A stretch of 50,191 bases of DNA from a virus. Under the pieces are notes generated by a model. The model was not told the DNA's origin. It worked only from the letters and a program-made list of their open reading frames with translations, and made no database searches. Position numbers and translations under genes: made by a program. This document shows, piece after piece, positions 14,347 to 21,448 of this stretch. Each line of letters starts with the position of its first letter. Position 1 is the first letter of the stretch. Location: the IMG/VR virus record IMGVR_UViG_3300035670_000312, positions 1-50,191 of that record; one strand, 5' to 3'.

Positions 14347-14712
14347 TCAAACTTCTTCAGAAACCTCAACCTCTACAACTCTAGCTTCCCGTTTCGGGAT
14401 GCGAATGCTGAGCAGACCGTGTTTCAGGTTTGCTGTCGTATGGTCGGCATCGATGCGCTGCCCGAGTGTGAAAAAAGCGTTTCCACGAGGCGTTTCCACA
14501 GCCAAACTGCGTCCCTCGATGCGAACTTTTACATCTTTGGGAGATACACCGGGAACTTCCACTTCCGCAACGGCAGCGTCGTCTTCGGAAGTAATGCGGT
14601 AGTTCAAGCCGGATCGTGCGTTGCTCGACTGTGCAAAAGGAGTTTGCATCAGAGTGTTGACAAGGGTGTCAAACTCAGAGTACAAAGGGCTACGAACAAG
14701 AGCGTTAGTCAT
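14347..14712 (-). CDS. hsp20: small heat-shock protein (Hsp20/alpha-crystallin)
   Basis: This 121-aa protein has the alpha-crystallin domain from about residue 38 (YRITSEDDAAVAEVEVPGVS), with PKDVKVRIEGRSLAV and the conserved close LKHGLLSIRIPKRE, then a short tail. Such proteins form oligomers that hold unfolded proteins; phage-borne copies are widespread in cyanomyoviruses. The class 1 promoter at 14765-14792 and a downstream terminator make it a single-gene unit. The N-terminal arm is short. Confidence 0.9.
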   Translation of the reverse strand: MTNALVRSPLYSEFDTLVNTLMQTPFAQSSNARSGLNYRITSEDDAAVAEVEVPGVSPKDVKVRIEGRSLAVETPRGNAFFTLGQRIDADHTTANLKHGLLSIRIPKREARVVEVEVSEEV

Positions 14713-15652: not shown

Positions 15653-15859
15653 TTCACCATCCTCCAACTCAATAACTCGATCCCTCAACTGTGTAACCTG
15701 GTGCGCTAGTTTTGTCATGGTGGAGAGAGCTTCTGTGAGAAACTCTTCCAGTTCCTCTCGGGTCAGTTCGTGCAGGCGACGTCGGATGGACAAAACACGA
15801 AACTCCGTTTCCATTGGCAAAGGAGTTAGTTCAAATTTCTTCGGTGAGTCCATGAGCAA
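15647..15859 (-). CDS. NblA-like small protein
   Basis: This 70-aa protein contains TEFRVLSIRRRLHELTREEL and continues EEFLTEALSTM. That parallels NblA, the small alpha-helical protein that steers phycobilisomes to degradation (pattern: EQQF, then Q-V-x-x-SREDLEDLF-E). The helix-turn-helix length is right. A longer C-terminal coiled coil (HQVTQLRDRVIELE) is not typical. Freshwater cyanophages carry nblA. The assignment rests on pattern only. Confidence 0.4.
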   Translation of the reverse strand: MLMDSPKKFELTPLPMETEFRVLSIRRRLHELTREELEEFLTEALSTMTKLAHQVTQLRDRVIELEDGEG

Positions 15860-16508
15860 TAGCCTGTAATTCGTGGAATTTTTCGGCTGCCCACTCGCGT
15901 TCTTCCTCGCTGATGGGTGCGTCTTCGATGTACTGTAGAAGCATTTTCATCTCAGCATCGGATAATTTCCGAATTTGACTTATTAGTTCGGGAGATAGGA
16001 GAGTGGCTTTGTGCTCTTCGAACTCAAAAACAAACTCCGGTGTAACCCAGTCCTCTGGGGCACTGTCATAGGAGAGGTGATAGTTGTTGCTTGCCAACAA
16101 ACAGTAGGTTACTTTCTCCACGTCGATGCCCAGGATCTCAGCAATCTCAAAGTGGTTTTTTCCTTCGTCGATCAAGGTAAATACCTTGGTCTTATAGTTA
16201 GCTATCCACCTCGGTGTTCTCACCATCCTCGAGTAGTCACGCAAAGCATGCTGGATGTACCCTCGTGCTGTGTTCCAAGCATAGGTACTGTACTTTACGT
16301 TCATGTCTGTACGATATCTAGTGGCAGCCACGCAGAGGGCAAAGTTAGCAATAGACTCAAGATCGTCTCGAGTCAAGGAGCCTGTATGGCCCCCTGTTAG
16401 ACACTTTGCCCCATGTGCGAGTCTCCCTGCGATCCACTTATGTTCCTCGACCAGCGCTTGTTGCTCAGGGGTGAGCCCTGGGTATCGTTTGTAACGGCGG
16501 CGAGTCAT
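15831..16508 (-). CDS. sigma70-family factor (A)
   Basis: From ATG 16508 the protein is 225 aa. Region 2 is clear: TRDDLESIANFALCVAATRY, NVKYSTYAWNTARGYIQHAL and DYSRMVRTPRW (about 46-100), with the tyrosine/tryptophan cluster that melts the -10 box. A later segment (HFEIAEILGIDVEKV) is helix-turn-helix-like, in place of a normal region 4. The start follows the nrdA stop by 1 nt, so the two are coupled. It differs from the sigma factor at 22310. It probably directs host RNA polymerase to one of the two phage promoter classes. Confidence 0.75.
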   Translation of the reverse strand: MTRRRYKRYPGLTPEQQALVEEHKWIAGRLAHGAKCLTGGHTGSLTRDDLESIANFALCVAATRYRTDMNVKYSTYAWNTARGYIQHALRDYSRMVRTPRWIANYKTKVFTLIDEGKNHFEIAEILGIDVEKVTYCLLASNNYHLSYDSAPEDWVTPEFVFEFEEHKATLLSPELISQIRKLSDAEMKMLLQYIEDAPISEEEREWAAEKFHELQAIAHGLTEEI

Positions 16509-16509
16509 C

Positions 16510-18420
16510 TTAGGCTTCGCAGGAGAGACAGTCAGCATAGGCTTGTTCTGTAGGTTGGGAGTTGAGATTTACGTAGTCGGTGTAGCCACCAATGTGCTTT
16601 TTGTAGAGCCAAACTTGAGGAACTGTCTTCCAGTTGGGGTCCCAGTAACCTTTCTCCACCGCCTCAGCTTTAGTGATTTCCTTGTATTGAATGCCGTCGG
16701 CAGCGAGGGCTTGCTTCAATTTTTCACACCAGGGGCAATCATCTTTGGAAACAACCAAAGCGGGAACCACTTTTTTGTTTGTGAGGAGGGAGGATGACTT
16801 CAGGTAATACAGTGACTTGAGACCCATTTTCCACGCCGACAAATGCAGACGCATGATGTAGGCTGGGTCGGACTCCGGATCTACGAATAAGTTTAGCGAC
16901 TGACCCTGACAAATAAACTCCTGACGGTCGGCTGCCTGTTTCACCAATTCAAACTGATCGATTTCTCGAGCGGTTCTGAAAATTTCCTTCTCGGAATCCG
17001 ATAGGCAGTCAAGATCCTGGACGCTACCTTTGGCCTCTAGGATTTGCTCCCAGATGCCCTCTCCGATTCCCCGGTCACACAGAAGTTTCTCGAGAACAGG
17101 GTTTCGTCGAACGTAAGTTCCTTTGGCTTGCTTGGCCACGAAATAGTTAGAATCAATTGGCTCAATGCCCTGGCTGAACGCTCCAGAGATAACTGAATTA
17201 GTCCGAGTAGGAGCAACAGCAAGCAAATGAGTATGACGAAGGCCAGACCCAACGCACCACTCGGGCTCCCCAAACTTCGCTGCGAGTTCTCGTGAGGCAA
17301 TTTCTGACTGTTCTCGTACCCAACGATGTGCTTCGATGTTGAGTTCGCGAGCGCCAGGCGAGCTAAAAGGTAATCCACGTTTCTGATAAAGTGTGTGCAA
17401 TCCCATTGTCCCCAGGCCTAACGCCCGAGACTTTTCTGCAAATCGGACAGATCGACCGAGTCCAACTTTGTCTTTTGCTTTGCGAATGAACTCCGAAACG
17501 ACCGCGTCAAGGAGATGAATCGCGAGTTGGGGGACTGTACGTCCTGAAGTAGGAGATTTCCACCCACTAAAGTCGTCATACCGACTAAGATTGAGACTAC
17601 TGAGGACGCAGACGAACGAATGATGCTCATCGGTATGCAAGAAGATTTCTGAACAAAGATTTGAGGTCTTCACGGAGAGACCTCGCTCGGTGTAGCACTC
17701 GGGGTTCTGACGATTGGCGTTGTCGATGTAGACCAGATACGGTGACCCGGAGATCATCCTCGTCTTAAGCACCTCTCCGAACAACTCCTGCTTCTGGGGG
17801 TCGCCAGCAATCATCGACTCAATCCACTCATCCGTAACAGTGAGTGCCACATTCGAGTCAATGAACTTGCGAGGGTCTCCTTTTGAGTGATCCTTCGCAC
17901 GTAGGAGCTCAGGAACGTCGGGATGGTCGATGGGTAGATAGATGGCGAACGAACCGCGACGGACTCCCCCTTGGGAGACAACTCGGGCGGCGAGGTCATA
18001 CTGCTGTGCCCAAGGCACGATCCCTGTGGATTTTCCTCCTCCAGAGATAGGAGCACCAGCGGGACGAACGTCCCCCATGTAGATTCCGACTCCCCCGCCA
18101 TTTTTGCTCAGCTGTGCGACTTCTTTGAGGTGTGAATAGATTGAGGAGACCGAGTCACTCAGGTGAACGGAGTAGCAGGAGATCGGCAATGCCCTTGACG
18201 TGCCGAAGTTGGCGGCGACAGGGGAGGCAAGACCGATCCAACCATTCCAGAGACACTGGAAGAGGTCATCGTAGAGAGACTCATCTTGATTGATTGTTGC
18301 TGCTGCTTTCGCAACACGTTGAAACATCGCTCGGGGTGTCTCCCCTGGCAGGAGGTAACCTGCCGACAGTGTGTGCATGCCCTCTTCTGAGAGCCATTCG
18401 GGAGCGATTGGATCGGTCAT
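16510..18420 (-). CDS. nrdA: ribonucleotide reductase large subunit with built-in glutaredoxin
   Basis: This 636-aa NrdA lacks an ATP-cone. The NrdA core has Cys82 (ISCYSVHL), the active-site motif SNLCSEI (Asn, Cys, Glu) and the radical-transfer tyrosines in KSLYYLKSS (538-539). Residues about 550-615 then hold a complete glutaredoxin fold: PALVVSKDDCPWCEK (CPWC 562-565), TVPQVW with its cis-Pro, and GGYTD. The protein ends with the redox pair CLSC (631-634). So the reductant that normally arrives as a separate protein is inserted just before the C-terminal cysteines. It is preceded by a GIY-YIG gene and nrdB. Confidence 0.85.
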   Translation of the reverse strand: MTDPIAPEWLSEEGMHTLSAGYLLPGETPRAMFQRVAKAAATINQDESLYDDLFQCLWNGWIGLASPVAANFGTSRALPISCYSVHLSDSVSSIYSHLKEVAQLSKNGGGVGIYMGDVRPAGAPISGGGKSTGIVPWAQQYDLAARVVSQGGVRRGSFAIYLPIDHPDVPELLRAKDHSKGDPRKFIDSNVALTVTDEWIESMIAGDPQKQELFGEVLKTRMISGSPYLVYIDNANRQNPECYTERGLSVKTSNLCSEIFLHTDEHHSFVCVLSSLNLSRYDDFSGWKSPTSGRTVPQLAIHLLDAVVSEFIRKAKDKVGLGRSVRFAEKSRALGLGTMGLHTLYQKRGLPFSSPGARELNIEAHRWVREQSEIASRELAAKFGEPEWCVGSGLRHTHLLAVAPTRTNSVISGAFSQGIEPIDSNYFVAKQAKGTYVRRNPVLEKLLCDRGIGEGIWEQILEAKGSVQDLDCLSDSEKEIFRTAREIDQFELVKQAADRQEFICQGQSLNLFVDPESDPAYIMRLHLSAWKMGLKSLYYLKSSSLLTNKKVVPALVVSKDDCPWCEKLKQALAADGIQYKEITKAEAVEKGYWDPNWKTVPQVWLYKKHIGGYTDYVNLNSQPTEQAYADCLSCEA

Positions 18421-19049
18421 ACGAGAACAAGGTCGAGGGTTTTCAGATAAGTCCAGTGAAATCCGCCTGCCCTCCTGCCGGATTTACAAGCGGTGCCAAT
18501 ATTTCCAGCATTGATGCCGGTTTCTCTCATTGCTTCTTTGGCAGAAGAAAAAACTTCCCCGGTTTCTACGCAGATAACCGGCTTGGAGTGTTTCCGAGCA
18601 CTCGCTCGTCCAGCGTTTACTGCCCGTTCTCTAACCTTTTCAGGGTTTTCGTCTTTCCACTTCTGTAAATTTTGAGCAGCGTCTGGAAACTTTTCCTGAG
18701 ATTTCTCCCCCATTCTTTTTGCCAGATCTGGGTGTTTTTGGTGAGTTTCTTTTGCTATTTCTGCCCGTCGTTCTCGAGAAATGAAGGGCAAATCTGTGCT
18801 GGGAGAAACGTTGTAGCACCACATAGTACCGTGGTAGAAGTCCAGATAATACTGCTCTTCTTCCCGGTTTGCTGACCCGTCGTCTTCCGAGGAAATCCAG
18901 TAAAAGTTTTCCGGTTTTTTCCTCAGAGCATTTTGAAACGGTAAGTTATCAGCACTTTTGAGGTGGTCGCGAACCCTTTTATTAAAGTCAGAGGTGCTTC
19001 CTACATAAAATTTACGAGAAGCAAGGTCGATTGCTAAATAAGTTCTCAT
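18417..19049 (-). CDS. GIY-YIG homing endonuclease between nrdB and nrdA
   Basis: This 210-aa protein begins YLAIDLASRKFYVGSTSDFN (the GIY-YIG pair seen as FYVGST), with R in KRVRDHLKS and E in REEEQYYLDF. The C-terminal third is a NUMOD-like repeat: PVICVETGEVFSSAKEAM, then GINAGNIGTACKSGRRAGGF. It lies in the nrdB-nrdA junction and overlaps the nrdA start by ATGA. Its own class 1 promoter is embedded in the nrdB 3' end. The expected target is a neighbouring nrd gene of a related phage. Confidence 0.8.
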   Translation of the reverse strand: MRTYLAIDLASRKFYVGSTSDFNKRVRDHLKSADNLPFQNALRKKPENFYWISSEDDGSANREEEQYYLDFYHGTMWCYNVSPSTDLPFISRERRAEIAKETHQKHPDLAKRMGEKSQEKFPDAAQNLQKWKDENPEKVRERAVNAGRASARKHSKPVICVETGEVFSSAKEAMRETGINAGNIGTACKSGRRAGGFHWTYLKTLDLVLV

Positions 19050-19051
19050 GC

Positions 19052-20029
19052 TTACAGTATAACCAGGTTAAGGGTTCGTAAATTAACAGCAAGAAAGTCT
19101 TGAGTGGGTTTTGCTACATAATTTCCACCGTCTTTGGATTGTGCAAAGAAGTCGGTGCTGGTTGCTCCCGCCATTAACGGGTGGAACCAGGATTTGATGC
19201 GGTTAGCAGAAGCTTCGTCGTATTTGAAGACTTTCTGTACACCCAGACGCGCCAATCGGTCGTTAACCCGATAGAGAATGTATTCTCGAACGTCATCCTT
19301 GTTGATGGTGCTCAGGGTACGACCCTCAAAGATCTTGTCCAGGAACGCAAACTCGTTTGAGATTACGGACTCGAAACCCTCGATCACTCCTTGAATCTCC
19401 TCTTGACCCAACGCATCCTCTTCGGTCAGTCGTCGGAAGAGTTCGATTCCGGTGTCGGAGTGTTGTTGTTCGTCAAGCGCAGACCAAGAAATGATTTGAG
19501 CGATTCCCTTGAATCGTCCGGTGAGGTTGAGAGAGAGCAGAACGGCGAAAGAGCTAAATAGAGAAACACCTTCACCAGCACCGCTGAACACTGCAAGAGA
19601 CTCTTTAACGCCTCGGTGTTGTAGGAAGTTGTCGATCTTTTGTTGGGCGACGGGGTCGCCGAGGAAGGCTTCGAATTCATCAAGACCGAGAGTATCAGAG
19701 AGAAGGTTGTATGCCTCCGCATGAACAATCTCCGAGAGAGAAAAAGCACGGGCAACCGCAGCGATCTCATGCTTCGGGAACCAGTCTGGAATCTGTGCCC
19801 AGTAGTCGCTCACATGGCACTCAAGCTGAGTGAATCCACGAAGGATTCCAGCGATGATTTCTCTCTCGTCGTTGCTGGCATTTTGCCAGTCACGAATGTC
19901 GCTTTCGAAGGAAACTTCTTGGGGCCTCCACTGAGAGGACTGTGCTTTGTGGTAAGCTTCAAAAAACTCAGGGAATTCAAACTCCCCGTTAATTTTGTAC
20001 GGTTGTCTATACTTTCGAATGCTTTTCAT
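19052..20029 (-). CDS. nrdB: ribonucleotide reductase small subunit
   Basis: From ATG 20029 the protein is 325 aa. All iron-site elements are present: QLECHVSDYW, SLSEIVHAEAY (E-x2-H-x3-Y, the radical tyrosine), GEGVSLFSSF and DEQQHSDTG (E-x2-H). It supplies the tyrosyl radical to NrdA. The longer frame to 20206 overlaps the previous gene and lacks NrdB residues. The C-terminus ends LAVNLRTLNLVIL instead of an acidic, NrdA-binding tail; the last residues are coded by the GIY-YIG promoter region. Confidence 0.85.
   Translation of the reverse strand: MKSIRKYRQPYKINGEFEFPEFFEAYHKAQSSQWRPQEVSFESDIRDWQNASNDEREIIAGILRGFTQLECHVSDYWAQIPDWFPKHEIAAVARAFSLSEIVHAEAYNLLSDTLGLDEFEAFLGDPVAQQKIDNFLQHRGVKESLAVFSGAGEGVSLFSSFAVLLSLNLTGRFKGIAQIISWSALDEQQHSDTGIELFRRLTEEDALGQEEIQGVIEGFESVISNEFAFLDKIFEGRTLSTINKDDVREYILYRVNDRLARLGVQKVFKYDEASANRIKSWFHPLMAGATSTDFFAQSKDGGNYVAKPTQDFLAVNLRTLNLVIL
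19056..19083 (-). promoter_or_regulatory. class 1 promoter of the GIY-YIG gene inside nrdB
   Basis: ATTTAC (19078-19083), a 16-nt spacer and TATACT (19056-19061). It lies in the last codons of nrdB and replaces its normal end. Confidence 0.6.
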
Positions 20030-20534
20030 TACTCCACCATGGGGGTGTATCGCTGTGGTTCCAAGCTGCGTAATGCTTGGTATGCATGTAACGTCGATAC
20101 GCTTCGACGCTGTTAATCGTTTGGTCCGCCTTAAACTCTTCGGGCATTGCTCGCACAAACGGCGAATGTTGCTGGTACATTTGGAGGGATCCACCCTGCG
20201 CTTCAAAAAGTTTCTTAGCGTCTAAATGTGCTTGAAGGCAACTATGGATCTTGTTGTATCGACGGTGGTACTCAGCGCAAATGGCAAGCCCGTGGACAAT
20301 CATCCACGCGACATTCTCCTGACACTCTCTGCCCCACTTGGTACACGGATGGTTTTTGTGTGTGGCTTTGTAGAAGCCTCCATCTTTTTTACGTAGCCCC
20401 CCATACGACAAAAACTCGTCGCTAAAGTTAGCCGCGAGCATCTGTGCGTTCTCGAGGGCCATTTTAACTACGAGTTTGTCTGGGAGGTTGTAAGCAGACT
20501 GATACGGGCAGTCGTCAGTGACGAACAGGTTCAT
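20007..20534 (-). CDS. conserved phage protein, 175 aa (dimer-glycosylase-like?)
   Basis: The N-terminus runs MNLFVTDDCPYQSAYNLPDK and continues with VVKMALENAQML. Then comes THKNHPCTKWGRECQENVAW. This resembles a phage family seen near replication genes and sometimes annotated with the pyrimidine-dimer DNA glycosylase superfamily (from memory, unchecked). A DNA-repair role is plausible, but the catalytic residue is not identified here. It has its own promoter and overlaps nrdB by 23 nt. Confidence 0.5.
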   Translation of the reverse strand: MNLFVTDDCPYQSAYNLPDKLVVKMALENAQMLAANFSDEFLSYGGLRKKDGGFYKATHKNHPCTKWGRECQENVAWMIVHGLAICAEYHRRYNKIHSCLQAHLDAKKLFEAQGGSLQMYQQHSPFVRAMPEEFKADQTINSVEAYRRYMHTKHYAAWNHSDTPPWWSNEKHSKV

Positions 20535-21250: not shown

Positions 21251-21448
21251 TCACCAAACTCCGGGGATGATTTGGCCAGTTACGGCATAGGCACCGAGGG
21301 CAGCCATAACACCGAGCATTGCTGCCCGACCGTTCAGCTTCTCTGCCTTCTCGTTGTGTGTCACGGAGAAATCCTTATCGGGATCGACGTACATCTTGGG
21401 CTCTTTGGCCCACATGTTCTGTTGTCCGTGCTCGTTTGAGGTAATCAT
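21251..21448 (-). CDS. hli: high-light-inducible protein (HLIP)
   Basis: This 65-aa protein has a single chlorophyll-binding span with the signature EKLNGRAAMLGVMAALGAYA (residues 36-55), the ExxNGRxAMxG motif. It binds chlorophyll and carotenoid and protects photosystem II under stress; phage copies support psbA-driven photosynthesis. It lies in the speD operon, 20 nt after a 52-aa gene, with no clear Shine-Dalgarno before its ATG. Confidence 0.9.
   Translation of the reverse strand: MITSNEHGQQNMWAKEPKMYVDPDKDFSVTHNEKAEKLNGRAAMLGVMAALGAYAVTGQIIPGVW

Follow-up and report, generated by a model that had tools for sequence, protein, structure and literature searches.

A glutaredoxin domain between the tyrosine pair and the terminal CxxC motif of a phage class I ribonucleotide reductase

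Introduction

Re-reduction of the C-terminal tail of class I ribonucleotide reductases (RNRs) is hard to study, because the contact between redoxin and tail is only brief. A virus record of 50,191 bases, here called the window, raises the question of whether such an enzyme might carry its own redoxin, since the sequence of its nrdA gene had led to the prediction that a full glutaredoxin (Grx) lies between the tyrosine pair of NrdA and a terminal CLSC motif. Below we describe this protein, the spread and probable origins of the layout in phages, and the role that the inserted domain would most likely have.

Class and catalytic residues of the window NrdA

The nrdA gene is a single uninterrupted open reading frame encoding 636 amino acids (Table 1). 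Its product matches the Pfam families Ribonuc_red_lgN (PF00317; residues 10-76, E 3e-9) and Ribonuc_red_lgC (PF02867; E 9e-98), and no ATP-cone was seen in it. Residues C82, N254, C256, E258, and C271 are all invariant in the 27-row alignment from which the invariance of NrdA residues was taken (A1). Cys82 and Cys271 are the active-site counterparts of E. coli C225 and C462, and Cys256 is the thiyl-radical cysteine corresponding to E. coli C439. The chain ends with CLSC followed by EA. The Tyr-Tyr pair upstream of it is diagnostic of class I alpha subunits, according to passages of PMC6370689.

The closest alpha subunits in the PDB found by phmmer are 6dqw (E 4e-132) and 6dqx (E 8e-127), and the nearest chains to the window NrdB are 6cwo, 8dq4, 6sf4, and 5olk; all six are subclass Id enzymes. 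The RNR of cyanophage S-TIM5, sister of the window protein, is likewise assigned to subclass Id in the part of PMC6370689 that deals with it. Since the nearest characterised relatives of both subunits belong to subclass Id, the window enzyme is, as judged from sequence, a class I RNR of subclass Id-like type. The listed nrdB frame (19052-20206) opens with a distant upstream TTG. Translation more likely starts from the ATG at 20029 (MKSIRKYRQ), as the resulting 325 amino acids are close to the lengths of the S-TIM5 and S-CBWM1 NrdB proteins.

Table 1. Coordinates of nrdB, nrdA, and the intervening gene in the window, with the functional elements of NrdA
Feature	Position	Strand	Evidence
nrdB, radical-generating subunit	19052..20029 (listed ORF to 20206)	-	PF00268 E 1e-49
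Homing endonuclease of GIY-YIG type in the nrdB-nrdA interval	18417..19049	-	PF01541 E 4e-8; PHROG homing endonuclease
nrdA, catalytic subunit of the class I RNR, carrying the glutaredoxin insertion (636 aa)	16510..18420	-	
Active-site Cys82	18175..18177	-	invariant in A1
Cys256 of the N-x-C-x-E motif	17653..17655	-	invariant in A1, likewise N254 and E258
Active-site Cys271	17608..17610	-	invariant in A1
Tyr538-Tyr539, inter-subunit radical-transfer pair	16804..16809	-	invariant in A1
Linker from Tyr pair to glutaredoxin, residues 540-551	16768..16803	-	544-550 pLDDT < 50 (AF2)
Glutaredoxin domain, residues ~552-621	16558..16767	-	PF00462; AF2 fold; Foldseek and VIA matches
CPWC, dithiol active site of Grx, residues 562-565	16726..16737	-	C, P, C invariant in A3
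TVP, cis-proline motif, residues 599-601	16618..16626	-	T, V, P, Q invariant in A3
GG, glutathione-binding loop, residues 611-612	16585..16590	-	invariant in A3
CLSC, C-terminal redox-active motif, residues 631-634	16519..16530	-	C631 and C634 invariant in A1; disordered in AF2

Fold and boundaries of the inserted domain

Several comparisons converge on the stretch downstream of the tyrosine pair. The Pfam Glutaredoxin family (PF00462) matches residues 556-610 (E 1e-8, above the curated cut-off), glutaredoxin 3-like models of NCBIfam match the same stretch below their whole-protein cut-offs, and a phmmer search of the PDB aligned E. coli glutaredoxin 3 with residues 556-621 (E 6e-6). Structure prediction, which had been proposed as a check, placed a Grx fold here: in the AlphaFold2 (AF2) model of the whole chain, residues 554-621 adopt the b-a-b-a-b-b-a arrangement with pLDDT of about 81-89, and the preceding linker (544-550) and the tail (623-636) stay below 50. 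The Grx fragment modelled alone takes the same fold, with 4tr1, 4tr0, 3grx, and 1fov as best Foldseek matches (probability 1.00) and 1nm3 as top match of VIA-align (Z 10.0, rmsd 3.9, 80 aligned residues).

By sequence and predicted fold the insertion is thus a complete dithiol glutaredoxin, and its position between Tyr538-Tyr539 and CLSC (631-634) of a class I NrdA is confirmed. The original prediction of this arrangement is borne out by sequence, fold, and comparative evidence, and the motifs that it had named are present as YY (538-539), CPWC (562-565), TVP (599-601), GGYTD (611-615), and CLSC (631-634); it had also set the domain at residues 550-615, of which the location stands and the bounds have moved to about 552-621.

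Recurrence of the layout in phages

The S-TIM5 NrdA aligns with residues 7-635 of the window protein as a single tblastn segment, at 66% identity, and among cultured cyanophages tblastn detected the complete arrangement in S-TIM5, S-TIM54, S-TIM61, S-TIM66, and S-CBWM1. A second, different query revealed it in Phage C48C1, Delftia phage PhiW-14, and the Acinetobacter phages nACB2 and SH-Ab 15599. For the whole protein, IMG/VR yielded 513 relatives, some of them without the Grx; a relative of the Grx-tail query is encoded by at least 475 pattern matches there, among the 600 listed. The layout is therefore common among phages, including marine viral contigs.

Conservation of the tail was assessed in 140 Grx-bearing tails, 99 of them distinct and 97 complete. 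CPxC, [T/S]VPQ, GG, and the terminal CxxC are present in every complete distinct tail (97/97), with 22-42 residues between the tyrosine pair and CPxC; in Grx-free relatives the CxxC mostly follows the pair within about 14-30 residues. Among all distinct Grx-bearing tails, 97 of 99 end in CxxC, and in the remaining two the contig stops within the tail. This indicates that the Grx was an addition to the tail shuttle and no swap; replacement of the CxxC tail by the Grx is ruled out by its retention in all complete tails. Purifying selection acts on the Grx domain (median pN/pS 0.34, against 0.19 for the NrdA core, with synonymous sites near saturation), and the constraint on it is weaker than on the core.

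No clear bacterial case emerged from the genomes covered. When 84,980 species genomes were scanned with the tail alignment, on the basis of one short pattern, there was a single full match, on contig JAAXIF010000028.1 of a Sphingobacteriales metagenome-assembled genome (MAG). This contig (L088) is 142 kb long and carries an NrdA-Grx of group B (see below) amid a dense phage-like gene order; it is probably phage DNA that was binned into the bacterial MAG. No further match at E <= 1e-18 was found in 395 + 398 genomes of two phyla. In these scans the layout thus appears to be almost confined to phages, and rare bacterial cases with other flanks may escape the short pattern. Its description as unusual holds against cellular RNRs, where we found no clear bacterial case, and fails among phages, where the IMG/VR matches make it common.

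Origins of the fused state

In the maximum-likelihood tree of the NrdA core, built with the Grx columns excluded, the Grx-bearing proteins occupy three places with Grx-free relatives between them. The window, S-TIM5, and S-CBWM1 make up group A; C48C1 together with the abundant marine type, group B; and PhiW-14 together with the Acinetobacter phages, group C. A single clade of Grx-bearing proteins was rejected on this tree (delta lnL 244.5, AU p 6e-5), so that the fused state appears to have been gained at least twice, or else a tail cassette was transferred; groups B and C as one clade were not rejected (AU p 0.10). The tree of the Grx domains themselves, which are short and give few supported branches, did not discriminate between one and several Grx sources (AU p 0.083). 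The linkers, compared as sequences, argue for separate insertions, since groups A and B each have the linker length of their own kin: it is long in group B, as in its Grx-free relatives (RTEAKQRAENVSEKVERVAL in group B versus CRSEAIKRAELVSQKIERTIIP in L064), and shorter in group A, resembling the relatives of that group.

A possible source of the domain is suggested by the free glutaredoxins. The fused domain is the sole PF00462 match in the window contig and in six complete genomes of isolates that bear the fusion (S-TIM5, S-CBWM1, C48C1, PhiW-14, nACB2, and SH-Ab 15599), and a free Grx match occurs in 7 of the 13 comparison phages with Grx-free NrdA, one of the seven below the curated cut-off. 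The free gene adjoins the nrd genes in Atu_ph07, Phosso, RcXuper, and Mwe-JY26. Since fusion genomes show no free Grx and others have grx beside nrd genes, the pattern in this small sample of genomes fits a neighbouring grx gene having turned into a domain. Atu_ph07, Phosso, and RcXuper were themselves rejected as fusion candidates, since in each of them the short NrdA tail is intact and grx is a gene of its own in the vicinity.

The nrdB gene of PhiW-14 (L086, 4325-5365) is annotated as 'bifunctional glutaredoxin/ribonucleoside-diphosphate reductase subunit beta'. Pfam's sole glutaredoxin match there falls within NrdA, however, and the annotation seems to be inherited from Francisella.

Proposed role of the tethered glutaredoxin

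We consider it likely, from sequence, the structural model, and analogy with known fusions, that the dithiol Grx in the flexible class I alpha tail acts as a tethered reductant of the adjacent CxxC; that it is held beside the cysteines to be reduced is our best inference from the sequence. NrdB would initiate the radical via Y538-Y539, ribonucleotide reduction would leave C82/C271 oxidised, and the mobile tail dithiol C631/C634 would re-reduce them. The oxidised tail would then be reduced by the CPWC site of the same chain or of the partner protomer, in a geometry that we presume, and the Grx would be recharged by host glutathione, the putative donor, with glutathione reductase and NADPH, so that the phage RNR would need no free redoxin. 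This route from glutathione through CPWC and CxxC to the active-site disulfide would be the most likely one because the residues for both its halves are all kept, and a working tethered Grx is plausible given that the Grx::NrdB fusion of Facklamia ignava (see below) reduces its own RNR. The Grx and tail cysteines are not in contact in the AF2 model, as both linkers are predicted to be disordered.

The hosts also possess redoxins, and S-TIM5 additionally encodes a thioredoxin-like protein; the tethering may for this reason only add to host reduction. The proposed role is favoured by the retention of every catalytic residue and of both redox pairs, by the purifying selection on the Grx, and by the lack of a free Grx in the six fusion genomes, a small sample; the weaker constraint on the Grx than on the core speaks against it. 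On the fullest reading we are evenly divided: an almost phage-only, self-reducing RNR of at least two origins, in which a swinging Grx-CxxC arm would pass electrons within the chain and free dNTP synthesis from host redoxins.

Other roles would be compatible with part of these data. We think it unlikely that the Grx is instead a platform or regulator, keeping the tail in a reduced or deglutathionylated state during oxidative or high-light stress, or tuning alpha-beta assembly, with host thioredoxin or Grx driving most turnover. The window phage and its relatives infect phototrophs or resemble phages that do, a High-light-inducible (Hli)-like ORF lies near the window nrdA, and the thioredoxin-like gene of S-TIM5 would agree with such a role; however, the dithiol CPxC is strictly retained, and the layout is also found in phages of heterotrophs (Delftia and Acinetobacter). 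Less probable again is direct reduction of the active-site disulfide by the Grx, or its reduction by glutathionylation, with a redundant terminal CxxC. The Grx does occupy the flexible arm that normally bears the shuttle cysteines, but a redundant CxxC would be expected to decay, whereas it is kept in all complete distinct tails, including those of the mutually distant S-TIM5, C48C1, and PhiW-14. Finally, a neutral passenger or a sequencing or assembly artefact is very unlikely: apart from the lower constraint on the Grx nothing favours it, independent isolates and many contigs carry the insertion with conserved catalytic residues, and the frameshift that the original prediction had named as its possible undoing is excluded by the single open frame and by the identical layout in cultured S-TIM5 and S-CBWM1.

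Relation to known glutaredoxin fusions

Grx-RNR fusions as such are already known. PMC6187632 describes the Grx::ATP-cone::NrdB protein of Facklamia ignava (subclass Id, CPWC), whose Grx was shown biochemically to reduce its own RNR efficiently. As in the window, the RNR is of subclass Id type and carries a dithiol CPWC Grx in covalent linkage; in F. ignava this Grx is N-terminal on the beta subunit, together with an ATP-cone, whereas in the window it is internal to the C-terminal tail of alpha and phage-encoded. Grx::NrdB fusions in Francisella and viruses are mentioned in parts of PMC6187632 and PMC3019208, and the Francisella one also joins Grx to a class I RNR, but at the N-terminus of NrdB. 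In the hybrid-Prx5 of Haemophilus influenzae (peroxiredoxin-Grx, 1nm3) the Grx is similarly attached to the enzyme that it serves; that enzyme is a different one, and its Grx is a C-terminal add-on rather than a domain ahead of a terminal shuttle motif.

Viral grx::nrdA fusions were reported in 2018 (PMC6187632), in a main text that names neither the viruses nor the position of the Grx. Both these and the window protein have Grx on a viral NrdA and are probably of the same kind, an identical layout being a guess; the S-TIM5 and PhiW-14 sequences were already public at the time. The S-TIM5 NrdA shares family and layout with the window protein, including the Grx and the CxxC tail, and differs in belonging to another lineage and in having an HNH rather than a GIY-YIG ORF between nrdB and nrdA.

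A Grx in the alpha subunit found no mention in the sections covered of the cyanophage RNR paper PMC6370689, including for S-TIM5, or in those of a phage RNR survey, a 2022 phylogeny, and a 2026 preprint. What we rate as new is that the Grx lies between the tyrosine pair and CxxC, that this placement occurs in unrelated phages, and that it apparently arose more than once. In passages of a 2022 survey of RNR insertions and extensions (PMC9669993), the C-terminus of class I enzymes is a disordered tail bearing a pair of cysteines, and the folded C-terminal domains newly reported there belong to class II; the layout thus looks like an overlooked type of class I tail. A natural redoxin and tail in one chain also offer a tractable construct for structural work and rapid kinetics, and the frequency of the layout in marine viral contigs suggests that the supply of reductant to RNR is important when phages make their DNA.

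Gene neighbourhood

The GIY-YIG ORF between nrdB and nrdA is genomic context and no part of the RNR enzyme. The HNH ORF of S-TIM5 occupies the same junction (L002, 2563-2925), an intein lies within nrdA of S-CBWM1 (L003, 3763-4788), and some IMG/VR NrdA frames (L029, L035, and L030) of 817-1001 amino acids may contain inteins; nrdA looks like a homing hot spot.

In both the window and S-CBWM1, nrdB and nrdA are followed by a sigma-factor gene and then by one for a small heat-shock protein. The sigma-70-like factor gene that follows nrdA in the window (15831-16538) likewise has a sigma-factor counterpart after nrdA in S-CBWM1; an ATG one base past the nrdA stop is its likelier start than the listed, overlapping one. 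The window also encodes an HSP20 protein (14347-14712), a pyrimidine-dimer DNA glycosylase family protein (20007-20534), and the small Hli-like ORF (21251-21448, recognised by eye), all three of which are consistent with a cyanophage.
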